The position numbers were made by a program, and so were the translations under genes. A stretch of 64,000 nt of DNA from Flavobacteriales bacterium. Lineage in GTDB: Bacteria > Bacteroidota > Bacteroidia > Flavobacteriales_F > PHOS-HE28. The notes under the pieces are model-generated. The model had not been told where the DNA came from, did no database searches, and saw only the letters and a list, made by a program, of their open reading frames with translations. The stretch is from the NCBI GenBank assembly GCA_026129465.1, contig JAHCIA010000001.1, forward strand, positions 3,369,583 through 3,433,582. The letters are read 5' to 3'. This document shows positions 45,045-63,015 of this stretch, piece by piece. The stretch's first letter is position 1; each line of letters opens with the position of its first letter.

Positions 45045-47084
45045 TTAGAGGTTGTCCACCGCGCGCTGCTGTATCTCAGCCTCGCTGTAGTTCCGTACGT
45101 GTTGCTGTGCGGCCTTGTGGCTGCCCTTGATCATGATGTAGTTCTTCTCCACCGCCTCTTGCTCTGGCGTCATCCGCATCACATCGTCCGTCTTGCTGCC
45201 TGCACGTGGTCGGCGCACCAGGCTCGCATCCAGCAGGAGCTGCTCGGCCAGGTAGGCCATCTGCTCCCTGTTATTCAGGATGCTGTCTATCGCTGCCTGG
45301 CTCAGCTCCTTCTTGAAGGATTCAGTGGCCGCGAGCTGTGCCCTGGTCTCAGGCGTGTGGTCCATGAGCGCCATTGGCATCGGCATCACTTCCGGCACCA
45401 GATATCGGCGCAGGCCGTCCATGCTGGTGGCCAGCACAGTGCTCAGGTCCTGCGGGTCGTAGGTGATGCGGAAGCGGGCACCCACCTCGCGCTGGAAGGC
45501 AGTGCTCAGCAATTGGTAGGGCCGCTCTTCTCCAAGGATGGTAGGGCATAGGCCTCGGTTCGTCAGCTCGTTCTCCCACTTGTGCTGCACACCGAACAGC
45601 TCCAGGTACTGCTCGCGGCCAATGGCGCGAAGCGTGCCGGCGGGCATGGCCTCCAGCGCCTGTCGGTATGCTGCAACCTTGTCGGCTCGCTCTGCTGCGA
45701 TCGCCTCGTGGATCTGTGCGATCACACCGTGCTCGTCCGGGAAGTGCTTTCGCAGGCTGTTCAGCGCTTCCGGGCTCGGCTGGTTTTCGCTCCTGGAGGT
45801 TACGTTGTGGCCGCTCCAGTTGTAGTTGCGGTTCACGTAGGTGTCGTTGTGGTGCTTGAACCAGGGCTCCACGATCTTGCTGCGGCTGTTCCTCGCCGCT
45901 GCCGGTGTATACTTCACGCCCATGCGCTCGTACCACTCGCCCAGCGTCTTGTGGCCAAGGCGGTCGCTTTGCACCTGGTAGGGCAGGGCGTAGCTGCCGG
46001 TCAGCTCCTTCATGTGCAGCACCGCGTTGGCCACCGCCTCCTGCGCCAGCGCAATGGTGTCCTGGTCGCCGATGGCGTAGCCCACCGGATACCACGTGTG
46101 CGGGTCCACCACCACCACTACCAGCTTGCGGTGGTGGTGCGTCACCTTGCCGCCCTCTTCCTTGCGGTATAGCAGCTCGTAGTCCGTGCCATCGTGCACC
46201 CACATGTAGGTGGGCTGCGTGGGCCTGCTGCGGTGTACCACTATGCCGTAGTTGTTACTGTACTGCGCGATGCCCTTGGCATAGATGCTGGCCGCGCGGC
46301 CATTGTTCCCATCGGCCAGAAAGCGCCGCACCGTGTTGGCGCTGATAGTTGGCCAGCCCTTCGCCGCAGCGATGCGGTTGTAGTCCGTGGCGTTGCGCTG
46401 TAGGCTGTAGTTCTGGTGGCGGCTGCAAACCATCAGCAGGGCCTTGCGCTGGTCATCGCCCAGCTTGCTACTGTTCGCGTTGCCCTGGCCACCGTGTATC
46501 AGCGTGGCCGCTCCAGGCTGGCCCTCGGCCTTGGCTGCCAGGTAGGCGCGCTTGCGCGCCTCCAGCCGGGCGAAGCTCGTGGGGAACTTCTTCGGGAGGC
46601 GCTCACGGTTGGCCTTGATGTAAGCCAGGATGGTTTCCTTCAGCGCCATCACCGTCATGCCAAACTCCGCCTGCACTGCCCGCGAGCCTCCCTCCTTCAT
46701 CACCTGGTCAAGCGTAGCCACCAGGTTCATGATGGCAGCGGCCTTCTTCAGCTCGCGGCGCTTCTCGGGTGAAAGGCCGAGGCCGTTGCTGCTCTTGAAG
46801 CCCTCGATGTGCCGCTCGTCCTCGGGCGTTAGGACCAGGTGGCGCTCCACAAGCTGCGCCTTGGCGATGTGCTCCGGGTCGCCACCAAGGTGCGCGGCAA
46901 CCAGCTCCTGGTACTTCGGTGCGAGGCTCTTCCAGTCGATCAGGGCAGGCCGTCCACCACTACCGCGCTGACAAATCGTTATGCGCCCCTCCCTCACGCC
47001 CTTGTCATAGGCGGGCTTGCTCAGGCAGCGGTCGTTCACCAGGTCGGCGAACTCCAGTAGATATGTGCCCTCAAGAACTACCAT
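45045..47084 (-). CDS. MuA-like DDE transposase
   Basis: A product of 679 residues. The catalytic DDE core is visible: D298 in VHDGTDYE (D301 is an alternative), D374 in QSDR and E406 in IVEPWF. The C-terminal Mu-transposase domain follows. The N-terminal half contains DNA-binding-like segments (for example ISANTVRRFLADGNN) that would recognise the phage end sites. It performs replicative transposition together with MuB. Its start overlaps the small gene upstream by seven bases. Confidence 0.9.
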   Translation of the reverse strand: MVVLEGTYLLEFADLVNDRCLSKPAYDKGVREGRITICQRGSGGRPALIDWKSLAPKYQELVAAHLGGDPEHIAKAQLVERHLVLTPEDERHIEGFKSSNGLGLSPEKRRELKKAAAIMNLVATLDQVMKEGGSRAVQAEFGMTVMALKETILAYIKANRERLPKKFPTSFARLEARKRAYLAAKAEGQPGAATLIHGGQGNANSSKLGDDQRKALLMVCSRHQNYSLQRNATDYNRIAAAKGWPTISANTVRRFLADGNNGRAASIYAKGIAQYSNNYGIVVHRSRPTQPTYMWVHDGTDYELLYRKEEGGKVTHHHRKLVVVVVDPHTWYPVGYAIGDQDTIALAQEAVANAVLHMKELTGSYALPYQVQSDRLGHKTLGEWYERMGVKYTPAAARNSRSKIVEPWFKHHNDTYVNRNYNWSGHNVTSRSENQPSPEALNSLRKHFPDEHGVIAQIHEAIAAERADKVAAYRQALEAMPAGTLRAIGREQYLELFGVQHKWENELTNRGLCPTILGEERPYQLLSTAFQREVGARFRITYDPQDLSTVLATSMDGLRRYLVPEVMPMPMALMDHTPETRAQLAATESFKKELSQAAIDSILNNREQMAYLAEQLLLDASLVRRPRAGSKTDDVMRMTPEQEAVEKNYIMIKGSHKAAQQHVRNYSEAEIQQRAVDNL

Positions 47085-50369: not shown

Positions 50370-50609
50370 TCACCCCACCTCCAGCGTAGGCAGGTATGCC
50401 TGCACGGCCGCCGATACATGTTCATCGCCCCAGGTGCCATTCACGTAAGGCTGTGGCGGCAGCCTATGTAGAACGCGAAGGTTCGGGCCGCAGTCCAGCA
50501 CAATTGTTGGCGTGAAGGTCTGCTCGGCGGGCCGGTCAACGGTGTGCAGCACTTGCCATTCCGGGTCTTCCAGGATCACACCTGGGTGGGTATCCAGTTG
50601 TAGCCTCAT
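50370..50609 (-). CDS. Small phage structural-region protein
   Basis: A product of 79 residues, last gene of the leftward structural operon. It has proline/valine-rich beta-like segments (TFTPTIVLDCGPNLRVLH). It overlaps the preceding tail gene by four bases. Unrecognised. Confidence 0.5.
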   Translation of the reverse strand: MRLQLDTHPGVILEDPEWQVLHTVDRPAEQTFTPTIVLDCGPNLRVLHRLPPQPYVNGTWGDEHVSAAVQAYLPTLEVG

Positions 50610-52345
50610 GGTGGTGTTGGTGGTGTCCAGCGGCGAACAAAGAGACCGTAGCGGTTGGTGGTCGCGGCCTTGGATGCAGCGGTCGCGGTTCCTGTAGTTC
50701 CACCAGCGACAATTATGCCGTAGGCAGAGCCAACCGTTCCGGGCACCGTTGTGCCGGTGAACCAAGTGAATGAGGGTTGAAGGATCGGACCATAGTTCAG
50801 CACCCCAGCCTGCTTGTAGTTGAGCAAAGTCATGAGCACACGAAGGCCGGGCAGGTGCCAATCCGAATGGCCTGCGAAGGAGTGCGCTTCTGCGGCCGCG
50901 ATGATGTCTGTCCAGTTCGGGCCGGTAAGCGGCGAATTCGGCACATACCACTGAAGCCGCGTGAAGTGGTCAATGAAGGTTCGGTTGCCCGACACGTCAT
51001 AGGCTGTTCCGTCAGGCGCGGTGAACCGGTTGGTGTTCCCAAAGGCGTTGGGCCAGCCAAGGGTTTCTTCATCAACAAGGTACTGGTGCTTACTCAGGTA
51101 CCCGACGGTCTGAGTGAGGTCATACCAACCTTGCTGAAGCAACCAAGGGTCATCCCCCAGAACACTACTCGCTGCTGGGCCTGCGTGCAGGTGCCGACCG
51201 AAGTTGTAGATGATCGGGTCGCCCTCTTCCGGAAGCGTGTAGAACGGGTTGGTGATGTCGCGGTATGCGTGCGGCGTGACGCCGTCGGCCTTCAGTAGTG
51301 TGAACCTCGGGATCACGTAAGCCGGTCGAAGCAGCCCCCCGCCGTACTCGGTGTTGGAAGGCGCGGTTGCTGCCGTGTAGCCAGCTGCGTTGATATAGCG
51401 GTTGTTGCTTAGCGGCAAGTTCTCGCTCTCGCCAGCAGGCGTGACCTGCACGATCGTCGCGCCAGTAGTTGTCCGTGTAACCGCGTCAGGACAAACGTAC
51501 GGGGGGGCTCCGCCCTGCACAGTGCCGAGCAACGCGCCCGCACTGTTTCGGATCTCCACGGCCGGCAACAGGCTCTGCACGTAGTTCACCTGGTCTGGCG
51601 TCATCACCGCGTAGAGCTGCTGGGGCGTGGCTTCGCCCACCAGCGTCTCCAGGTCACCGGCATTGCCGCCCAGCAGGATGTACAGGTCCGCAGCCTGTTG
51701 CGTGGTCAAACTCTGCGCGATCACCTGCACCGTGGTGATGGGTATAAGCTGCTGTACCGTGGGACATTCACCAGGTGCAGGCGTGATGGGTGGCACCTCG
51801 CCGGTGACCGGCTCTATCTCCAGCTGGTGCGGTGGCATCAGGTACTGGAGCTGCGGGCTGGTGCTGTTGTCGTGTATGATGCAGCGGTAGGTCTGCCCGT
51901 ACATGTACATGTAGGGTGGCGCATCGGCCTTCCGCTGCATGCCCACGCGGCTTAGGGGCGAGTAGTGCTCGCCGCTCGCGTTGTGCAAAGCGACGTGCAG
52001 CTTTCGCATCAGGCCCACGAATTGCATGGCCCGGCGCTGGCCAGCGCTGCCGTGGGTGGTATCCTGCACGGTCTCGGTGGCCACCCACACGGTCACGTCC
52101 ATCTCCAGCTGCTGCGCCAGGTCGCCCACATCGTTCACCTGTGCGGCCTGGAAGTCCAGGAACACGGCCGGTGCGCGGAAGGGGAGCCATTTGCCATCGC
52201 TATCGATCACTTGGTCCTGACCGTAGTACAGGTCCACGTGCTTGATCTCCGGCACCTTGGCCTTTATCAACTCGCACAGCTCCTTGTACGCTTCGCCCCA
52301 GTCCTGGAAGATGGGATCTACGTTGTCGTTCGTGTTCCAGCTCAT
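50606..52345 (-). CDS. Tail protein (Gp37-like) fused to a DUF1566 domain
   Basis: A product of 579 residues. The N-terminal 150 residues (WGEAYKELCELIKAKVPEIK, then LDFQAAQVNDVGDLAQQLE, LHVALHNASGE) resemble tail-terminator/Gp37-type proteins of Mu-like phages. A variable linker with a VTGEVPPITPAPGECPT stretch follows. The C-terminal 150 residues are a DUF1566 (Lcl-type) domain: FIDHFTRLQWYVPNS, then WTDIIAAAEAHSFAGHSDWH and LPGLRVLMTLLN, ending YGLFVRRW. DUF1566 domains are often surface-binding and include variable tips in other phages. It overlaps the gpG-like gene upstream by four bases. Confidence 0.65.
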   Translation of the reverse strand: MSWNTNDNVDPIFQDWGEAYKELCELIKAKVPEIKHVDLYYGQDQVIDSDGKWLPFRAPAVFLDFQAAQVNDVGDLAQQLEMDVTVWVATETVQDTTHGSAGQRRAMQFVGLMRKLHVALHNASGEHYSPLSRVGMQRKADAPPYMYMYGQTYRCIIHDNSTSPQLQYLMPPHQLEIEPVTGEVPPITPAPGECPTVQQLIPITTVQVIAQSLTTQQAADLYILLGGNAGDLETLVGEATPQQLYAVMTPDQVNYVQSLLPAVEIRNSAGALLGTVQGGAPPYVCPDAVTRTTTGATIVQVTPAGESENLPLSNNRYINAAGYTAATAPSNTEYGGGLLRPAYVIPRFTLLKADGVTPHAYRDITNPFYTLPEEGDPIIYNFGRHLHAGPAASSVLGDDPWLLQQGWYDLTQTVGYLSKHQYLVDEETLGWPNAFGNTNRFTAPDGTAYDVSGNRTFIDHFTRLQWYVPNSPLTGPNWTDIIAAAEAHSFAGHSDWHLPGLRVLMTLLNYKQAGVLNYGPILQPSFTWFTGTTVPGTVGSAYGIIVAGGTTGTATAASKAATTNRYGLFVRRWTPPTPP

Positions 52346-52899
52346 TTAACCAGTGGTTCAACAATGGACTTGAGAATGATGCGCCGCATTTCCATACGCA
52401 GCACGTGGCTGTCACCCATGAACTTGCGCTGTGGTATCACCGTGTTCATCCTTCGGGTACTGGCCCTCACCTTGGCCTCCTTGCGCATGCGCGTACCGGC
52501 CTTGGTGCGGGCCATATGTGCGCGGCGATCGAAGGCGCGCACGGATACGGACTTGGATATGGTGCCGCCATCGTTGTGTATGGCGGCATAGGGCACATGG
52601 CTTCCGCCAGCCACCACTTGTATGTCGTTCCACTGCCACCGGACCAGGCGCACGCTGTTGCGCAGAAGTCCGAATTGGTAGAGGATGGTATGAGGTTTCT
52701 GCTTACCGCGCTTGGTCATGGGCGGTTTGGCGCGTTTGCGCCAGGGCACCAGGGCCTTATCGGTAAAGCCTTGGTTCTTGAAGCTGTTGCGGAAGTGCGT
52801 TTCGGCGGCCTGGCCGAGCTTCTTGGGTAGCTTGGTCACCAGGTCTTTCTGCATCCGCTGGATGCGCTTATCGAGGTTCTGTATCCCGTAGACCGGCAT
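52342..52899 (-). CDS. Mu gpG-like virion morphogenesis protein
   Basis: A product of 185 residues matching the phage virion-morphogenesis/tail-completion family (Mu gpG type). RNSFKNQGF with WRKRAKPPMTKRGKQKPHTI, LLRNSVRLVRW and VPYAAIHNDGGTI are the family's signature path: the W-x-x-R, L-x-x-S, Y-A-x-I-H-N-x-G motifs. It helps join head and tail. Confidence 0.8.
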   Translation of the reverse strand: MPVYGIQNLDKRIQRMQKDLVTKLPKKLGQAAETHFRNSFKNQGFTDKALVPWRKRAKPPMTKRGKQKPHTILYQFGLLRNSVRLVRWQWNDIQVVAGGSHVPYAAIHNDGGTISKSVSVRAFDRRAHMARTKAGTRMRKEAKVRASTRRMNTVIPQRKFMGDSHVLRMEMRRIILKSIVEPLVK

Positions 52900-52995: not shown

Positions 52996-55887
52996 TCATC
53001 GGGCGTTCTTCTTTACCAGGTTGCCCATGCGATGCCTGCCGATTGTCTTGGCATCGGCCTCGTACCACGTCACCACGCGCATGGATGGCTCGGAACGGGC
53101 CTGTAATATCGCCCGTGCCTCCACCACGATGGTCTTTCCCTCGTAGTACCTGATGTACTTGTAATGAGCGGCCCCAGGGGTGTCCCTTTTCGATGAGCCG
53201 AGCAACCAGACCTCATCGGGCTGCTTCAGTACGTCAGGTATGGCGTGGGCCAGACCATAGCGCTTCTCTTGCTCATACCTCTGTTCAAATCCCTTGTGTC
53301 CGGGGTCGGTGTGCTTGCGGTAGGCGTCTCGCGAGAAGGACCAAGGTCTGCCTACGTGGTCATGGAAGGTGGTCTTGCTCTGCTGCGGCGTGGGGAACAA
53401 CAGCGCTTCGGCCTCTTCGCGCGATAGCGCACCTTGTGGCATGCCAGGCAGTTCGCGGCTCATGATATCCGCGTAGCGCTGTTTGCGCCACAAGCGGCCA
53501 TAGTTCTCCTTGATGCCCATGGCCTGGTCCAGCTTGCCCGTGTTGTAAGAGGCGTTCAGCTTGAACACCTCTCCCAGCTGTGACCTGTTCACGGCGAAGC
53601 CGCTGCTCTTCATGACCGCATACTCCTTGGGGTCAATGAACTCCTGTGCGCTGTGTTTGTCCTTGGGTAGCGCCTCAGTGCCGTCATCGATCGGCGTCAC
53701 GTAGCAGCGGCAGCGCCAGCCGTTCGGCGGGTAGATCTCCCTCCAGATGCTGTCGTTGTGATGGAAGACCTTGTTGTTGAGGCGGGCGTGAGCTTCGCGC
53801 ACCCGGCCGTCCTCCATGGTCTCATAACGCCAGAATGGGAGGGCATCGGCGCGCTCCTTCATGCTGTAGTAACGGCTGGCCTGCATTCCGCTATTCACAG
53901 CGTTGGCATACTCTGTGGCTCGGTATGCCTCGAATTTGCCGAACTTCTTACTCTCCACCACGCGGCGCTTGAAGTCGGCGAAGCCCTTTGAGGATCGAGC
54001 GATCTCGTTCATTTCCCGTGCCATGTACTCTGTCTTCAGGCCCGAGAACTGGTATATGTTGGCCTCCATAACGGTATGGGCCACTGTGTCAATGGCCTCG
54101 GGGTTCACAGGTGCATTCGGCCAGCCTCTGTCGAATGCGCTCTTGAGTGCCTCAGCAGTATGGTTGAAGTAGTGCTGGGAGAACAAACCGCCACTGTCTT
54201 CGATCTCGCGAAGAACGGCGTCTGCTTCCTCTTCGGTGAGCGGCACCAGCCCGCCCTCGGCGGTGATGTCCATATCCCGGCTCCCACCGCACACCCCACA
54301 GCTTCCAAGGCTCTTGCGCGGCCACTGCGCTGTGATGCCATCGCCGTCTTCATCCTCATCCTCCTCCCCGCCTTCCTCGGCTTCGCCCTTCTTCTTCCCG
54401 CTCTGCTTGCCGTTGCCTTTGGGCGGGGTGTCCGTGGGTGGCGGGTCGGCCTGCTTCATGCCTTCCAGCATTTGGTCGATGCGCTCCTCGGGCACCTTGG
54501 GAAAGGCCACGCGAATGAGCGGCCGCGCAACGGCTGCGGGAATCTCGCCAGTGGACACCTTGGTCATGAGGTCCAGCAGGCTGGCCACTTGTGCGCCGTT
54601 CATGGCCGTGTCCTGGATGCTCAGACCATCCGGCGATACAACAGGGTCGGCGGGGTCTCCACCTGGCCCGATCTCCCCAGGCATACGGCGTGCCCCCAGG
54701 ATCTTGATGCCGGTGCGCTCCTCCACGTGCTTGGGGTCGATGTCGAACACCACGCCGAGCTTGGCGACTGCTTCCACTGTTTCCATGGCACTCATGTCGC
54801 GCAGCTCGTCCCACTGGAAGCGGATGCCCTTCAGCGGGTAGCCCAAGGCGACCAGGCGCGGAAGTAGTTCCTGGTTGATCACATAGAGTGCGGCTGTCTT
54901 GTCCGCCTGGTGCCGGTCCTCGGCCACGCCCTGGAGCACCTTCATGGATCCGTAGGTGCCGCTGGCGTCCTTGTTGTCGGTGGTGCCATCCTGCCCCAGC
55001 ACGCGCTTGCTGATCTCGGAGTTCATCCTGGAGATCAGGTCGTCGAACACCTTGTGCGGGTCGCCACCAGGCGTGGGGCTGATGCCGAACTCCTCGTCGC
55101 CCTGGATCACTGCGTAGGCACTGCTCAGCATGTTCTGCATCACCTCCTCCAGCTGGCGCACGCGCCGGGCATCGCGGGCTGCTGTCTTCACCCAGCGGCT
55201 GGGGATGCCGTAGGTGCCCACGAATGCGCTCCAGCTTCCCACGGCATACTTCTTCACGATGGCCACCGGTGCCACGCGCTCCAGCAGGCCAAGGTCATCG
55301 GGCCTGCCCACTTCGATCAGGTAGCTGCGCAGAGGCTCCTCACGGAACTTGTAGCCGGTCTCTTCGCCCATGCGCCTGGCCACCACGCCGTGGAAGGGCA
55401 GCACGTTGCGCGGATCGATCCGGTTCACCGTTCGCAGGTCTCCGGGCTTGGGCAGCTCGCCCAGCTCGATGAGGGTGTGGCCCACGAACTCGGCCTCCAC
55501 CACGTAGCGTAGGAAGTCCTCGAACCATTGTGCCTCCAGGAAGGTGAGCAGCTCCGGCTTGGCCTTGCCGTCCGGCCCCACCAGCTTGAACTTCGATCGT
55601 TGCACCCGCAGCACTCGTGTCTCCAGCACGCTGCCAAGGTGGGCGTCCTTCACCAGGCTGTCGTAGAGGTCCATCAAGCGGCTGCGGTCGGTCCGGTGTA
55701 CGTTCTTGGCCATGTTCACCGCCACCTCCCAGTCGCGCATGTCCACGCTGCGGTGGGGCATGTTCCAGCGCTCCAGATCGGGCATGCGATCGCTCTGCTT
55801 CATGGCCAGGGGGAGGGCCGTTCCGGAAAAAGCCGCTCTAAGGCGCTCAAACAGGTTCGGACGGGGTGATGTACCAGCGAGGCGCAT
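52996..55887 (-). CDS. Portal (DUF935)-MuF head protein-PBECR nuclease fusion
   Basis: A product of 963 residues from the ATG at 55887; the frame is open further up to a GTG at 55971 inside the preceding gene. Three parts are seen. Residues about 30-400 are a DUF935 (Mu gp29-type) portal, with DLYDSLVKDAHLGSVLETR near the start and VLPFHGVVARR later. An acidic linker (EEGGEEDEDEDGDG) separates it from a MuF minor-head domain (about 560-780), recognised from RATEYANAVNSG, then ARLNNKVFHHNDSIW and PPNGWRCRCYV. The last 120 residues (HKGFEQRYEQEKRYGLAHAI, DEVWLL, VVEARAI, RVVTWYEAD) fit the PBECR family of Barnase/EndoU/colicin-like nucleases. Mu keeps gp29 and gp30 separate; the fusion is clear because the frame is uninterrupted. 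Confidence 0.82.
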   Translation of the reverse strand: MRLAGTSPRPNLFERLRAAFSGTALPLAMKQSDRMPDLERWNMPHRSVDMRDWEVAVNMAKNVHRTDRSRLMDLYDSLVKDAHLGSVLETRVLRVQRSKFKLVGPDGKAKPELLTFLEAQWFEDFLRYVVEAEFVGHTLIELGELPKPGDLRTVNRIDPRNVLPFHGVVARRMGEETGYKFREEPLRSYLIEVGRPDDLGLLERVAPVAIVKKYAVGSWSAFVGTYGIPSRWVKTAARDARRVRQLEEVMQNMLSSAYAVIQGDEEFGISPTPGGDPHKVFDDLISRMNSEISKRVLGQDGTTDNKDASGTYGSMKVLQGVAEDRHQADKTAALYVINQELLPRLVALGYPLKGIRFQWDELRDMSAMETVEAVAKLGVVFDIDPKHVEERTGIKILGARRMPGEIGPGGDPADPVVSPDGLSIQDTAMNGAQVASLLDLMTKVSTGEIPAAVARPLIRVAFPKVPEERIDQMLEGMKQADPPPTDTPPKGNGKQSGKKKGEAEEGGEEDEDEDGDGITAQWPRKSLGSCGVCGGSRDMDITAEGGLVPLTEEEADAVLREIEDSGGLFSQHYFNHTAEALKSAFDRGWPNAPVNPEAIDTVAHTVMEANIYQFSGLKTEYMAREMNEIARSSKGFADFKRRVVESKKFGKFEAYRATEYANAVNSGMQASRYYSMKERADALPFWRYETMEDGRVREAHARLNNKVFHHNDSIWREIYPPNGWRCRCYVTPIDDGTEALPKDKHSAQEFIDPKEYAVMKSSGFAVNRSQLGEVFKLNASYNTGKLDQAMGIKENYGRLWRKQRYADIMSRELPGMPQGALSREEAEALLFPTPQQSKTTFHDHVGRPWSFSRDAYRKHTDPGHKGFEQRYEQEKRYGLAHAIPDVLKQPDEVWLLGSSKRDTPGAAHYKYIRYYEGKTIVVEARAILQARSEPSMRVVTWYEADAKTIGRHRMGNLVKKNAR

Positions 55888-55936: not shown

Positions 55937-56440
55937 CTAGAAGTGGTGGCCCTTGGGTATCCATGCGCCACCTACGCGGGGTATACCGGCGTCCAGGGAG
56001 GGGTCCTCCACTGCTGGAAAGTCCGGTACCTCCTTGCCGGCTGCCACCCTGTCCAGCCAGGCCAGGGTCTCGTCATGGTCGTCCTTCACCGTCTCGGGTA
56101 TCTTCCTGGGGTTGATGCGCCGGTACAGCAGGTACACGAAGATGTTGAGCACGTGCAGGATCACCAGCGGGTGGCGGTCGTCGTCCTCGGCAGCGAACAG
56201 TGCATCGTCGTTGAAACGGTTGTGCAACGCACTCCGCACCTTGGCGATCGCCATGCTCTCGCAGCTCAGCTCCACGGTCTCGCTGGTGGCCAGCGCTGCG
56301 GCATTTGCGGCCACGGCCTCGGCATCGTTCTCATCCGGCTCAGGCGCACCAGGATCCCAGTCGCGCAGGTCGTTCCGGTGTTCATCGCGGATGCGGCTGT
56401 TCACATCGGCGGCTGTCAGGAAGGCGTATTCGATGGCCAT
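55937..56440 (-). CDS. DUF1320 (Mu Gp36-like) protein
   Basis: A product of 167 residues. The DUF1320 pattern is plain: VRSALHNRFNDDALF, then ILHVLNIFVYLLYRRINPRK and DHDETLAWLDRVAAGK. In Mu, Gp36 is a head-tail connector. An alanine-rich insert sits near residues 40-55. It lies between the terminase and the portal fusion, three bases after the former. Confidence 0.82.
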   Translation of the reverse strand: MAIEYAFLTAADVNSRIRDEHRNDLRDWDPGAPEPDENDAEAVAANAAALATSETVELSCESMAIAKVRSALHNRFNDDALFAAEDDDRHPLVILHVLNIFVYLLYRRINPRKIPETVKDDHDETLAWLDRVAAGKEVPDFPAVEDPSLDAGIPRVGGAWIPKGHHF

Positions 56441-56443
56441 GGC

Positions 56444-57985
56444 TTACCAGATGTTCTTGGGGCGTGGTCGTGGAGCAACTACCGGGTCCGCCCATTCCCG
56501 GCTCACTACTTCGCGGCTGAGCACGCTGATGGCTTGCTCGTCCGCATCGGGTGCATCGTCGTGGCCGCTGTAGCCTGGTTCGATCCCTTTCAGTTGGGCC
56601 AGGGCCACCATGCTGTCGCTGTCGCCCTTCAGGCGATCGCTGTAAACCACGCGGCCGTTCTGGTAGTACGGGTGCAGGCTAAGAATGCGGTCGTACTTGT
56701 TGGCCTTGCTGCGTTCGGCCCGGCTGATGAGCAGCTGGTGCCGCTCCTCCTTGCACACGTCGGCAAGGGTGCGCTCAAGCTCGTCGTTCCAGAACTGCGC
56801 CTCGTACTGCCAGCGCACGGTAACACTGGCAGGCAGGTTGCGGTCGTAGTCCACCATCCAGCGTACAGCAGCGGCCATCTTGCTCTGCTTGCAGAAGGTG
56901 GCCAGCAACCAGTAGCGGTTATCCTTGCTTAGGCCCCACACGCGCACGGCGTTGTAGTCTGCGGTGCTCGTACCAGCGTAGGCCACATCCCAGTGGCCTA
57001 CGACATGCTCAAAGTGATCGATGCGCGGTGGCTTCTCGAAACTGAAGAGGTCGTCGGTGAAGATGCTCCCTTCCACGTGCGGCTCGTGCAGGTACTCAGC
57101 GCGTACGGCCAGGGTGCCGTTCTTGCGCTCCATGTCGCGCCAGTACGCATCATCGAAACCGTACTTCTCTGGCCATGCAGCCAAATAGGTGACGGGATCG
57201 TACGCCTTCACCTCGTTGCACACCCAGTCCTTGTGCCGCTCCAGCAGCCGGGTCTGTATCATGTCCGGCGCGAATCGGTTGTTCGCGATCACCAAGCGCT
57301 GAACGGGGCCGTCCATGGTACCGAGCACATCGGTCTCCACCCAGTGTACCATCTCGGCCAGGCGCTTGGGGTTTTTGCATAGCTGGCGGGTCTCGCAGTC
57401 GTCCAGCACGATGTAGGTTGGACGCAGCGCGCGCTTGCGCAGGCCGCGCACACTTTGGCCCATGCCCAAGGCAACGCCGGTGAACCCTCCCTTGGTGGTG
57501 AAGGAGCCGTCCTGCCAGCTGCCGCTCATCTGCTGATCACCGCAGTCGTGGATCAGCCGTGGGTTGGCCTCGAACTCTGCCTGCACGTCGCTCAGCAGGG
57601 TCTTGGCGCGGTCGTGGCTGCTGCCCACGATCACCAGGTACATGGGCTCGCCACGGAACCACAACCAAAGGGGTGTGATCACATCAGCCCATACGCTCTT
57701 CGCGTGGGCGCGTGCCCAGCGGAGCACGATGCGGATGTCCTTTGTGCGCAGTATGCGCCGTGCGGCTTCATCCTGGAAGGCGGCACACTTGCTGCTGGCG
57801 TAGTGTTTCAGGTAGGTCTCGGCGAAGACCACGGGGTCTGCTTTGGCCTCGGCGATGCGCAACTCCTTTTCAACGGCCGTTTCATGCGCTTTGAATCCAG
57901 CGCTGTTGCGCAGGATCTCCAGCTTGCGCCGGTACCCGGCCAGTAGCCGTTCCTCGGCCTTGCGGTTCCTGGCCTTCTTGCTCAT
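56444..57985 (-). CDS. Terminase large subunit (Mu gp28-like)
   Basis: A product of 513 residues. The ATPase half has LRWARAHAKSVW (a Walker A variant) and YIVLDDCE (Walker B). The nuclease half begins at VGHWDVAYAGTSTADY and ends with SGHDDAPDADEQA, giving the acidic metal-binding residues. It packages phage DNA from replicated, chromosome-integrated copies in Mu-like phages. Its start overlaps the small-subunit gene by four bases. Confidence 0.88.
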   Translation of the reverse strand: MSKKARNRKAEERLLAGYRRKLEILRNSAGFKAHETAVEKELRIAEAKADPVVFAETYLKHYASSKCAAFQDEAARRILRTKDIRIVLRWARAHAKSVWADVITPLWLWFRGEPMYLVIVGSSHDRAKTLLSDVQAEFEANPRLIHDCGDQQMSGSWQDGSFTTKGGFTGVALGMGQSVRGLRKRALRPTYIVLDDCETRQLCKNPKRLAEMVHWVETDVLGTMDGPVQRLVIANNRFAPDMIQTRLLERHKDWVCNEVKAYDPVTYLAAWPEKYGFDDAYWRDMERKNGTLAVRAEYLHEPHVEGSIFTDDLFSFEKPPRIDHFEHVVGHWDVAYAGTSTADYNAVRVWGLSKDNRYWLLATFCKQSKMAAAVRWMVDYDRNLPASVTVRWQYEAQFWNDELERTLADVCKEERHQLLISRAERSKANKYDRILSLHPYYQNGRVVYSDRLKGDSDSMVALAQLKGIEPGYSGHDDAPDADEQAISVLSREVVSREWADPVVAPRPRPKNIW

Positions 57986-58458
57986 GCGTGGATACGTGCT
58001 ACCTCATCGAGCAGCAGGCTTTGGAACTCCACCAGCTTCACGTGCGCGGCGGGGTCGTACTTCTGAAGTTCGCCGAACACCCACTCCATGATGCGCAGCC
58101 TGGCGCTGAGCGTGATGTCGTTCTCGGCGCGCACGATCTCCAGCGTCTTCGCCGTCTTTGCCAGCGCATCCACCAGGCGGGCCTTCTCCTTGGCCCCGCC
58201 CATGGCCAGGGCAAGGTCCTTGTCGCGCTCCATGTTGGTGAGCTGTTCGCTGTAGGTCTGGATCAGGCCACGCAGCGCATTCTCCACGTTCTTGCTGCTG
58301 GTGAGGTGTGCGGTGCGCAGGTCCTCCCAGTTGCCTTTGGTGGCCCAATCGCCCACGGTCTTCTCGCGCACTCCCAGCTTTTCGGCGATCTCCTTGCGCG
58401 TGATGCCCTGCTCCACGAAGTAGATGCGCGCGATGTTGCGTTCCTGGTCCTTGGCCAT
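57982..58458 (-). CDS. Terminase small subunit-like protein (DUF1804 type)
   Basis: A product of 158 residues from the ATG at 58458. The N-terminus YFVEQGITRKEIAEKLGVRE is a helix-turn-helix, followed by VGDWATKGNWEDLR, which is the classic small-terminase start in Mu-like phages (DUF1804/YfeC-like). It is coupled to the large subunit. The upstream region has a large palindrome. Confidence 0.78.
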   Translation of the reverse strand: MAKDQERNIARIYFVEQGITRKEIAEKLGVREKTVGDWATKGNWEDLRTAHLTSSKNVENALRGLIQTYSEQLTNMERDKDLALAMGGAKEKARLVDALAKTAKTLEIVRAENDITLSARLRIMEWVFGELQKYDPAAHVKLVEFQSLLLDEVARIHA

Positions 58459-58501
58459 GCTGCGAAGGTGGTCCCGTAGGGGTTCGCGCGCGCGCAATTT
58501 C

Positions 58502-58537
58502 TCCCATGGTGCGGGGCACCAACCCCGCACCATGGGA
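58502..58537. promoter_or_regulatory. Perfect 15-bp palindrome between divergent late operons
   Basis: TCCCATGGTGCGGGG (58502-58516) and its exact reverse complement (58523-58537) flank a six-base spacer. It sits in the 124-base gap between the leftward terminase operon and the rightward protease/capsid operon, a natural place for a shared late regulator site. A smaller CGGCC/GGCCG pair lies at 58563-58583. Confidence 0.6.
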
Positions 58538-58582
58538 ACTTTTGTTGGTGGCGGAGGATCGCGGCCCGCATGTTTGCGGCCG

Positions 58583-59674
58583 ATGATCAAGCGCCCGCTG
58601 CATATCACCGCCAAGCGCAACGGCAAGCGTGCCGATGTGCGCATCGAGGGCGTGATCGCGAGCTACACACGGGCGAACGCCCGCGACTTCGAGGCCAGCA
58701 TCGACGCGCTGGTGGCCAGTGGCGTGGCCGATGGCCATGTTTACATCGATAGCGAGGGGGGCAGCGTACTTGAGGCCAAGCGCATCCTGGGTGCGCTGCG
58801 CAAGCTCACGGGCCGGATCACGGGCGAGGGAGGTCCTGCTGTGATGAGCGCTGCCACGTACATCGGCCTGCACCTGGACGAGTTCCGTGTGCAGAGTACG
58901 ACTTCGTACATGATTCACAAGCCCAAGGCGATGGTGGACGGCGACGAGGACGAGGTGGAGAAAGACCTGAAGGGCCTGCGCGATGTGACCAAGGAATATC
59001 GCGCGGCTTACGCGAAGAAGACGGGGAAGAGCGAGGAAGATATCGAGGCACTTTGGAGCAAGGGCAACCGCTGGTACACCGGCGAGGAGGCTGTTGCCGA
59101 AGGCTTCGTGGATGGCCTGGTCGAAGACGAGGGAGAAGAGATCAATGAGGAAGCCGTTGCGCGCATCGCCGCATGTGGCTGTCCCGCCAATAAGTTACCC
59201 AAAGCCAGTTCGGCCAAAACCAAGACCACAACGATGGACATCAACCTGCTGCGTGCCACGCTGGGCATGCCCGAGACCGCAACCGAGGCTGAGGTCCTCG
59301 CCCGTCTGAATGCGCTGAAGGCCAGCGAGGCCAAGGCGAAGGCCGATGCCATCGCCCGCCGCACCCAGGAGGTGAAGAGCATCCTGGACAAGGCCGTTGC
59401 CGAGAAGCGCATGACCGAGGCGCACCGCGCCAGCTACGAGGCCAAGTTCGCCGCAGACTTCGATGCCACCAAGGCCGAAGTGGAGGCCCTGGTGGCCGCG
59501 CCCAATGTGGCCAGGGAGACCGGAGCCGATGGCGGTAGTGCCGCTGTGGCCAAGGGGCGCGAGAACTGGACCTACGCCGAGTGGATGGAGAAGGACGAGA
59601 AGGGCCTGAACGCCATGCGCAAGGACAACCCCGAGGCCTTCGAGGCGCTCTGGAAGGCGCAGTACGGCAAGTGA
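58583..59674 (+). CDS. ClpP-type head maturation protease with scaffold domain
   Basis: A product of 363 residues from the ATG at 58583. The N-terminal half is an S14 (ClpP-like) protease: YIDSEGGS at about residues 54-61, catalytic S89 in VMSAAT and H112 in YMIHKP. The C-terminal 146 residues after a KTKTTT linker are a helical, alanine/glutamate/lysine-rich scaffold with a MDIN-type internal start at 59234 (codon 218). In related phages the scaffold is also made alone from an internal start. It matures the capsid shell. Confidence 0.85.
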   Translation: MIKRPLHITAKRNGKRADVRIEGVIASYTRANARDFEASIDALVASGVADGHVYIDSEGGSVLEAKRILGALRKLTGRITGEGGPAVMSAATYIGLHLDEFRVQSTTSYMIHKPKAMVDGDEDEVEKDLKGLRDVTKEYRAAYAKKTGKSEEDIEALWSKGNRWYTGEEAVAEGFVDGLVEDEGEEINEEAVARIAACGCPANKLPKASSAKTKTTTMDINLLRATLGMPETATEAEVLARLNALKASEAKAKADAIARRTQEVKSILDKAVAEKRMTEAHRASYEAKFAADFDATKAEVEALVAAPNVARETGADGGSAAVAKGRENWTYAEWMEKDEKGLNAMRKDNPEAFEALWKAQYGK

Positions 59675-59731: not shown

Positions 59732-60781
59732 ATGAAGCACTTCATCAACTTCTTCACCGCGCTGTTTCTGTGCCTGTTCATGGCCGCAGCCGTAAGCCAC
59801 ATCACCGGCGCGGACCTCGGCACCGCCTTCGTTGGCTGCCTGGCCGGGTCGGCCATGCTATCGCTTGTGCCCATGCCGCAGGGCGTGGCCAATGCGGTGG
59901 CGCTCTTGCAGCTGTGGGAGTCGGCCATCATCAATCCGTTCGATGCGGACAGCCGCTTCCTGGATGGCGTACAGGAGAAGAACCAGTACGTGAACAAGAA
60001 CATCATCAACCTCACCGAGATCGGTGCGGACCCCGACGTGCTGGTGAACAACACGGTGTATCCCATTCCCAGCGATCAGCGCACGGACAACAACATTCCG
60101 CTGGCACTGAACAAGTATGAGACGACGAACACCACCATCACCGATGATGAGCTGTACGCGATCCCGTACGACAAGCCCGGCAGCGTGGTGAGCCGCCACC
60201 GCATCAGGCTGAACACCTTCTTCCTGGCGCACGCGGCCTACAATCTGTGCATCCAGGAGGACACGGCCACCACGCCCCTGCTGCGCACCACCGGCCCCGA
60301 TGATGGCACCGGCCGCCGCAGGCTGCTCCCCGCCGACCTGATCCGGTTGCAGCTGGCCATGGACCAGATCGACGCCCCGGATGATGAGGGTGAGCGCCGC
60401 CTGATCCTGAACGCGCAGCACTGCGCCGACCTGCTGATCGCGGACCTGAGCTTCGCCCAGCAGTTCCACAACGCCAAGAAGGGCCTTATCAGCGAGAACT
60501 ACTACGGGTTCCGCACCTACAAGTACACGAAGAACCCGCTGATCACGGCCGCTGGCCAGCGGAAGGCCTTCGGCTCGGCAGCAGTGTCCGGAGACCAGAA
60601 GGCGACGGTGGCCTTCCTGACGAGCCGCAGCTTCAAGGCGAGCGGTACCATGAAGTTCTACTACCGCGACGCGGCCACGAACCCCGAGATGCGGGAGAGC
60701 AACGCCGGTTACCGCTGGCATGCCATCGCCCTGCCGCTGAAGAACACGGGCTTTGCGGCCATCGCCAGCGCCAACATCTGA
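59732..60781 (+). CDS. Major capsid protein
   Basis: A product of 349 residues, expressed directly after the protease/scaffold gene. The body matches Mu-like/HK97-type capsid proteins of Bacteroidota: NAVALLQLWESAIINPFDAD, then FLDGVQEKNQYVNKN, an RRLILNAQHCADLL segment and TVAFLTSRSF near the end. The first 47 residues include two hydrophobic stretches (FFTALFLCLFMAAAVS and LGTAFVGCLAGSAMLSL), odd for a capsid; translation from the ATG at 59873 (MPQGVANAVALL) would skip them. Alternatively a small membrane protein has fused to it. Confidence 0.75.
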   Translation: MKHFINFFTALFLCLFMAAAVSHITGADLGTAFVGCLAGSAMLSLVPMPQGVANAVALLQLWESAIINPFDADSRFLDGVQEKNQYVNKNIINLTEIGADPDVLVNNTVYPIPSDQRTDNNIPLALNKYETTNTTITDDELYAIPYDKPGSVVSRHRIRLNTFFLAHAAYNLCIQEDTATTPLLRTTGPDDGTGRRRLLPADLIRLQLAMDQIDAPDDEGERRLILNAQHCADLLIADLSFAQQFHNAKKGLISENYYGFRTYKYTKNPLITAAGQRKAFGSAAVSGDQKATVAFLTSRSFKASGTMKFYYRDAATNPEMRESNAGYRWHAIALPLKNTGFAAIASANI

Positions 60782-62117: not shown

Positions 62118-62623
62118 TGACGGCAGCGCAAGGCGCGGCGGCCTACTTCGCCGAGAATCCGGAGGTGGACAGCGTGCTGGCCACCAGCGATGGCAATGTG
62201 TGGCCGCTGGCCCAGCTGAGCCTGGCCACTCACCACGCCACGCGCAACAGCCTGGCGGCGCCTGGCACCGTGGATCGCGAGGACCTGGAGGAGGAGATCG
62301 CCGTGGCTGAGCTGATCCTGATGGCCATGGGCAGCCGCACAGACGCGAGCAAGGGCGTGACCAAGGTGGCCGTGCCTGTAGAGCCGGTGCAGCCCCCAAC
62401 CTATGAACAGGCTCGCGCCGAACTAGCCACCGCACTGGGCATCGCCGCACTGACCGACCTGGACGAGAGGTACACGGAGGATGGTGTGGTGCTGCTCGCG
62501 ATCGATGCGGTGATCGCCACCTGGTACCGCAGCGGCATGACCGTGGCCGCATGGGCCGCGCAGAGCAAGGCCGTGCGAGAAGCCGCCGTCGCGGCGGAGT
62601 TCCCTGACTTCATCACCCTGTAA
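62117..62623 (+). CDS. Phage protein with DGNVW motif
   Basis: A product of 168 residues. An early SDGNVWPLAQLSLATHHA segment matches DDGNVWLPGAKHLAYTHA of the next gene, so the two share a small domain. The C-terminal part is alanine-rich and helical. It starts inside the stop of the endolysin frame (TGATG) and ends in TAATG with the next start, so all are coupled. A tail-associated role is possible from position. Confidence 0.6.
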   Translation: MTAAQGAAAYFAENPEVDSVLATSDGNVWPLAQLSLATHHATRNSLAAPGTVDREDLEEEIAVAELILMAMGSRTDASKGVTKVAVPVEPVQPPTYEQARAELATALGIAALTDLDERYTEDGVVLLAIDAVIATWYRSGMTVAAWAAQSKAVREAAVAAEFPDFITL

Positions 62624-63015
62624 TGATCACCATGCACATCTCAAAGATCCATCTGGCCGCAGCCCTTGCTGTTTTCGCACAGTACGCAGATGCACAGGAA
62701 GTGTACGTGACCGATGATGGCAATGTGTGGCTGCCCGGTGCCAAGCACCTGGCGTACACCCATGCCAAGGCCAACAAGCTGCCAGCACCGACGCGCGTAG
62801 AGCGCAAGCATGCAGATGTGGTGGATGGTCTGCGGCAACTGCTGAAGGGCACCGACAAGGCCGCCGCCGACAAGGCTGCTGCCGACAAGGCCGCCGCCGA
62901 CAAGGCTGCTGCTGACAAGGCTGCTGCCGACAAGGCCGCCGCCGACAAGGCTGCTGCTGACAAGGCTGCTGCCGACAAGGCCGCCGCCAACAAGGCTGGC
63001 AAAAAGGGCAAGTAA
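62623..63015 (+). CDS. Phage protein with KAAAD tandem repeats
   Basis: A product of 130 residues. It opens with a signal-like stretch (HISKIHLAAALAVFAQYADAQ), a DDGNVWLPGAKHLA domain shared with the gene before, and then nine exact copies of DKAAA plus a basic end (NKAGKKGK). The repeats would form a long alanine-rich helix with alternating charges, as in TolA-like spacers. The 45-bp higher-order pattern of the DNA shows recent duplication, so length may vary. Function unknown; placed just before the tail sheath. Confidence 0.6.
   Translation: MITMHISKIHLAAALAVFAQYADAQEVYVTDDGNVWLPGAKHLAYTHAKANKLPAPTRVERKHADVVDGLRQLLKGTDKAAADKAAADKAAADKAAADKAAADKAAADKAAADKAAADKAAANKAGKKGK
62854..62988 (+). 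repeat. 15-bp tandem repeat (nine copies)
   Basis: Nine units of GACAAGGCNGCNGCN. Units 4-6 and 7-9 are identical as 45-bp blocks, marked by the GCT/GCC choice. A degenerate tenth unit follows to 63000. Confidence 0.95.

Follow-up and report, generated by a model that had tools for sequence, protein, structure and literature searches.

A fused portal-MuF-PBECR2 gene in a Mu-type prophage of Bacteroidota and a probable -1 frameshift signal at the portal/MuF junction of its two-gene relatives

The fused gene and its surroundings

The window, i.e., the whole stretch of DNA analysed here, comprises 64,000 nucleotides of the genome of a Flavobacteriales bacterium. Its minus strand carries a gene of 963 codons which extends from an ATG at 55887 to the stop at 52996 without a single internal stop; stops are abundant on the plus strand across the same interval. 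The frame stays open upstream as far as a GTG at 55971, and the homologues in the relatives L002 and L003 have their starts close to the ATG at 55887. The original prediction, which did not state the strand, had described at exactly this position one uninterrupted frame of 963 codons joining a portal, a MuF protein and a PBECR-type tail by a very acidic linker, with no stop between portal and MuF. The reading frame, the Pfam profile matches and the run GEAEEGGEEDEDEDGDG in the linker (Table 1) confirm this description.

All three domains exceed the curated Pfam cut-offs. Portal_Mu (PF06074) scores 208 bits against a cut-off of 23.9 and is matched over positions 1-336 of 336, i.e., as a whole domain. 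Phage_Mu_F (PF04233) reaches 53.6 bits (cut-off 29.6); the TIGR01641 match of the same domain (2.1e-9) stays slightly under its cut-off. The position of MuF is in the packaging module, beside the portal and between the gp36-like and gpG-like genes. PBECR2 (PF18810) reaches 39.7 bits (cut-off 27.1), with an E-value of 6.5e-10 in the whole protein and of 4e-11 when the domain is searched alone. When the sequence of the entire protein was searched against solved structures, no match was obtained. The full-length structure model is of low confidence (pLDDT 60 overall) and was used for linker disorder only: residues 456-586 are almost wholly below a pLDDT of 50. The CGVCG of the linker corresponds to a Cys motif found N-terminally in many MuF proteins that are encoded separately. 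A CGxC is present in the linker and in the head protease; its interpretation as a common cleavage motif was abandoned, the Cys pair being a feature of the separate-MuF N-terminus.

The surroundings (Table 1), which also include an AAA ATPase, a possible MuB, are those of a Mu-type transposable prophage of Bacteroidota, and the fused gene belongs to its head module. The next gene downstream, 97 nt beyond, codes for the gpG-like protein of 185 aa. Some further features of the window deserve mention. The first ~50 residues of the major head protein are hydrophobic and resemble membrane segments; this start is kept in L003 and missing in the head protein of the P. gingivalis phage. A protein encoded at 50606-52345 (minus strand) matches phrog_6911 with its N-terminus and has a C-terminus which is Lcl_C-like, under the cut-off. 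A small ORF at 62623-63015 (plus strand) ends in a near-perfect short-repeat run (AAADKAAADKAAADK...).

Table 1. Positions of the fused gene, its parts and neighbouring genes in the window
Feature	Position	Strand	Basis or remark
Portal-MuF-PBECR2 fused gene	52996..55887	-	ORF and Pfam; open to GTG 55971
Mu-type portal domain, residues 72-394	54706..55674	-	Pfam PF06074, E 2.7e-61
Linker, residues 401-545	54253..54687	-	low confidence in model; recombination junction
Very acidic run GEAEEGGEEDEDEDGDG	54337..54387	-	within linker
CGVCG motif (C530, C533)	54286..54300	-	within linker
MuF domain, residues 646-730	53698..53952	-	Pfam PF04233, E 4.4e-14
PBECR2 RNase-like domain, residues 838-957	53017..53376	-	PF18810, conservation, AlphaFold, BECR-fold matches
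Codons of H859; T940	53311-53313; 53068-53070	-	PBECR2 domain
gpG-like protein (Phage_tail_S)	52342..52899	-	Pfam; travels with MuF-PBECR cassette
Mu gp36-like head-tail adaptor	55937..56440	-	profile matches; conserved flank of cassette
Terminase large subunit	56444..57985	-	phrog_38, E 1e-59
ClpP-type (S14) head protease	58424..59674	+	PF00574, E 3e-15
Major head protein	59732..60781	+	phrog_267, E 4.6e-11
MuA-like transposase	45045..47084	-	phrog_310, E 1.9e-35; rve under cut-off

Relatives of the fused gene and exchange of a cassette

The uninterrupted fused frame is also present in relatives whose overall identity is 72% and 53%, in a relative of the same genus (965 aa) and in P. gingivalis phages (853 aa in one record; ten such records matched). 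Altogether, 25 fused portal and MuF frames were found among 150 loci. Because relatives carry the same uninterrupted frame, the fusion in the window is not a sequencing artefact. The three-domain architecture as such is already known. Iyer et al. (2017; PMC5512222) described fusions of PBECR, MuF and portal, i.e., single polypeptides with the three domain families found here, and proposed a virion-packaged RNase for them. Frameshifting is unmentioned in that study; here, the fusion is linked to a frameshift signal which relatives carry, and cassettes are shown to be exchanged at the linker.

In Mu the gene order and the protein families are those of the window, yet gp29 and gp30 are two genes with a separate start for gp30 and no slippery site, and the C-terminal PBECR reported for gp30, the MuF protein, is degenerate and inactive (Iyer et al., 2017; PMC5512222). 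Thus, the original statement that portal and MuF are separate in Mu is correct, whereas the nuclease domain is not an addition peculiar to the gene studied here.

Different pictures emerge when the domains of the fused relatives are compared one by one. Between the window and L002 the identities are 74% for the portal, 76% for MuF and 66% for PBECR; between L002 and L122 they are 90%, 40% and 36%, respectively. The switch point of identity falls within the fused gene itself, in its acidic linker, and an insert in the linker (about residues 401-480) is common to the window and L122 and missing in L002 and L003. The gpG-like gene tracks the cassette (window and L002, 74%; window and L122, 45%); the upstream gp36-like gene (70-72% identity) does not. 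MuF, PBECR and gpG constitute an exchangeable cassette which is joined at the acidic linker.

The C-terminal tail

Modelled by AlphaFold on its own, the tail (residues 829-963) yields a pLDDT of 88 and a pTM of 0.84. Foldseek alone found no significant PDB match for the C-domain (best E 0.04). In VIA, a second-look structural alignment, the five best matches are toxin or RNase chains: 7vd7, a chain of a toxin-antitoxin complex (Z 6.1), 3u97 BrnT (5.4), 3ao9, the C-domain of a sequence-specific RNase (5.0), and the CDI toxins 6cp9 (4.8) and 7m5f (4.4); Z-scores of 4-6 are moderate and can reflect a common arrangement. A His and a Thr define active PBECR domains (Iyer et al., 2017; PMC5512222). 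They correspond to H859, in a helix of the model, and T940, in a strand, and both are kept. This pair is conserved in most relatives and in nearly all fused ones; in L052 both residues are replaced together. The PBECR2 match, the H859/T940 pair and the VIA matches, the last with moderate Z-scores, are consistent with the nuclease fold predicted for the C-terminus. The tail is a predicted RNase which keeps the His/Thr pair of an RNase.

Other fused relatives have other tails. A CdiA_C domain is found in L046 (E 1.3e-12), in L118 (E 1.7e-7) and in one further A1 member (1.1e-4), probably L036, which is devoid of PBECR. The fused gene of L124, from the same genus, ends in an LPD1-like tail (E 2.6e-4, under the cut-off) with a HELGHH motif. 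The exchangeable C-terminal domain which characterizes MuF polymorphic toxins is therefore evident here, as PBECR2, CdiA_C or LPD1-like tails and as exchange of a block. Such toxins were found in temperate phages (Jamet et al., 2017; PMC5576092) and, like the window protein, combine MuF with a variable toxin-like C-terminal domain. Unlike them, the window MuF is fused to a portal and has no adjacent small immunity ORF: directly downstream no small immunity ORF was found, the next gene being gpG-like. For this reason the gene is not classed as a toxin-immunity pair, and the missing ORF argues against a simple pair of this kind.

What does the tail do? One reading is that the portal ring carries PBECR2 effectors which, once cut free, pass with the DNA into the new host and degrade host or phage RNA, or else serve in the competition among phages. 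Such a function has already been published as a hypothesis for MuF toxins, and it is in line with the intact H859/T940 pair in a BECR-like modelled fold and with the CdiA_C tails of L046, L118 and the A1 member and the LPD1-like HELGHH tail of L124. Yet no small immunity ORF occupies the 97 nt up to the gpG-like gene or follows, Mu keeps an inactive PBECR, and the link to the portal must be cut first. We rate this reading at slightly less than an even chance; the toxin or competition function originally envisaged is weakened, since no immunity ORF follows and a domain tied to the portal is not injectable unless cut loose.

We consider it rather unlikely that the tail has a structural role only, in head assembly, portal closure or binding of RNA or DNA, as a PBECR without catalysis. 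The inactive PBECR reported for Mu gp30, the co-variation of the MuF-PBECR block with gpG, a morphogenesis protein, and the lack of an immunity gene would agree with such a role. It is at odds with the conservation of the predicted catalytic pair in nearly all fused relatives and with the replacement of the tail by unrelated toxin-like domains in other relatives.

A probable frameshift signal in two-gene relatives

Of the 82 split pairs, 71 have a MuF gene that is read in the -1 frame relative to the portal. An in-phase X_XXY_YYZ heptamer is present in the overlap of 41 of the 44 non-redundant -1 pairs from Bacteroidota relatives, compared with a background of 5% in portal bodies and with 2/11 in other pairs. 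The types are T_TTT_TTC (19), A-type (16), G_GGA_AAG (5) and A_AAT_TTT (1). Within the last 70 nt, 43 T6 heptamers are in the slip phase and none in either other phase. T_TTT_TTC is followed after 5-6 nt by a hairpin, GCCCCN..N'GGGGC. All of its cells are paired (7 pairs, 100%), compensatory changes occur in three pairs with 12 doubly changed cells, and the covariation score was reached by 0 of 500 shuffles. The folding z downstream of the sites is -1.44 on average versus -0.12 in controls (mononucleotide shuffle). No clear hairpin is seen at A-type and G-type sites. A hairpin model recovers Hankyphage p00, the P. gingivalis phages and L118, none of which were in the training set; for a genome-wide scan the model is too short to be specific, and the 170 genomes with E <= 0.01 are mostly probably chance matches.

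For 38 of the 44 pairs, no ATG is encountered until more than 60 nt beyond the portal stop. A possible start, mostly GTG or TTG, is situated within 30 nt of the portal stop in 13/44, so separate initiation of MuF is possible for these. One may then ask whether MuF is generally made from its own GTG or TTG start by translational coupling, the heptamers being incidental. These nearby starts and an ATG at the portal stop of Hankyphage speak for it, yet we regard it as very improbable in view of the strict T6 phase (43:0:0), of the covarying hairpin at 5-6 nt, of L047, L063 and L075, which have no start of any kind before the MuF domain, and of Peternella, in which MuF-specific Cys motifs precede the first start. 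Equally improbable is slippage of RNA polymerase during transcription: T or A runs 6-9 nt long, and the T6/T7 difference within pairs like L117/L118, would permit it, yet G_GGA_AAG sites are unable to slip that way and the spacer to the hairpin is fixed at 5-6 nt.

Among cultured phages, in-phase sites are of the T-type in Hankyphage p00 and Elizabethkingia TCUEAP3 and of the A-type in Peternella and fF4; in BS-TP1 an A_AAT_TTT was seen by eye. No such slippery site exists at the portal/MuF junction of FPSV-S1, Mu and Mushu. The deposited MuF annotations in Hankyphage p00, TCUEAP3, Peternella and fF4 begin downstream of the signal; the deposited starts are 98 nt (Peternella), 113 nt (BS-TP1) and 275 nt (TCUEAP3) past the portal stop. 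In at least two of these cultured phages the annotated MuF proteins appear truncated.

The tail assembly chaperone genes G/GT of lambda have a -1 frameshift site. T_TTT_TTC operates in the tail assembly chaperone frameshift of PaMx73 (PMC4378225). The likeness to portal/MuF comprises the -1 slip, a virion gene, a short and a long product, and the same heptamer types. The differences are the genes, here portal and MuF, and a window gene which has no slippery site at all. Literature searches in open-access papers retrieved no description of a portal/MuF frameshift, an absence which is no proof of novelty; in PRFect (PMC10885494) MuF-like genes are merely listed among possible frameshift or fusion cases.

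Two side observations concern similar signals elsewhere. In the divergent pairs L018, L019, L021, L022 and L024 the portals end in ...LKKKY or ...LKKKH with A_AAA_AAR in phase, and an ATG close by is mostly missing; this may be another, separate case of frameshifting. The same slippery run and hairpin element as above are present in L166 (G370:C116:31398-31454) and L170 (G249:C1:393361-393416) where hsdM and hsdS of type I restriction systems apparently meet, the genes being identified by eye. The methylase frame ends in ...SFFV* or ...SFFH*, and a specificity-subunit-like frame, different from that of the methylase, goes on with FFRLSPFN.. or FFSLSPFN.., which suggests a frameshifted HsdM-HsdS fusion.

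Fused genes with and without the signal

Many fused genes of other clades still have the T6/T7 run, the spacer and the hairpin at the junction. The hairpin is present in 12 of 13 fused genes with a T6/T7 run; part of it could be kept simply through conservation of the protein motif FF..AP..GA. L117 and L118 are one T apart; in metagenomic contigs, a difference of a single T could stem from a sequencing error. A -1 slip in the signal-keeping fused genes would end translation after about 12-44 codons and leave the portal alone. The dnaX gene of E. coli yields its long product in frame 0 and its short product by a -1 slip. The logic proposed for the signal-keeping fused genes is alike in an unrelated gene; it is not applicable to the window's own clade. 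The fused gene L009 (229-2682, minus strand) has several slippery-like runs (A_AAT_TTT), a -1 stop within 0-5 codons and no hairpin.

The linkers of the window, L002 and L003 contain no slippery heptamer, and a search of the window's genome with the hairpin model gave nothing significant, the best match (E 0.18) lying beyond the window. Therefore, the fusion is the only product expected. A hidden frameshift at GKKKGE of the window gene was considered and rejected; the DNA reads aag aag aag and contains no heptamer. The portal tree requires at least 7 changes between fused and not fused, forced by starred branches, and the window's clade is nested in a clade (99*) whose portals comprise 13 of the frameshift and 6 of the fused kind. 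In the GC-rich clade of the window the signal has been lost.

A proposed model for the joined chain

The computed elements, i.e., the single frame, the domains, the active-site residues, the cassette exchange, the phase, the hairpin covariation and the lack of a nearby ATG, can be accommodated in one model. The joined portal-MuF chain is probably the conserved product, made via frameshifting or via in-frame fusion. In most two-gene relatives, some ribosomes would shift into the -1 frame where the portal gene ends and so make the joined chain as a minor product, the proposed slip sites being T_TTT_TTC plus hairpin, A_AAA_AAR or G_GGA_AAG. In other clades the genes are joined in frame, and those which keep the signal would free the portal alone by a -1 slip; the window's clade would produce the fusion only. 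That portal-MuF joining is conserved, along two routes and with an exchangeable tail, is in our opinion a likely explanation of the whole.

The window protein would then be a portal subunit followed by a flexible acidic linker and a MuF head protein ending in PBECR2. The linker may tether MuF and the tail to the portal ring. The ClpP-type (S14) head protease is a candidate processor which may cut the linker; the tail, a predicted RNase, may then enter with the DNA, and an uncut tail would stay in the particle. Frameshifting in cells, RNase activity, an orientation inside the head, release by the protease and entry with the DNA are the steps which we infer.

We further consider it likely that the conserved -1 signal sets the ratio of free portal to portal-MuF-effector, that the in-frame fusions are a constitutive end state, that others slip in reverse to free the portal, and that the rings are mixed with a controlled number of effectors. 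About a dozen effectors per ring, as originally proposed, is plausible for signal-free clades like that of the window and only for those, because elsewhere the frameshift signal would give two products.

Portal rings are usually treated as assemblies of identical subunits. A recoding signal by which a minority of the subunits would acquire MuF and a toxin-like tail would make the copy number and the delivery of MuF directly testable, and the signal is at hand in the cultured phages Hankyphage p00, Elizabethkingia TCUEAP3, Peternella and fF4.
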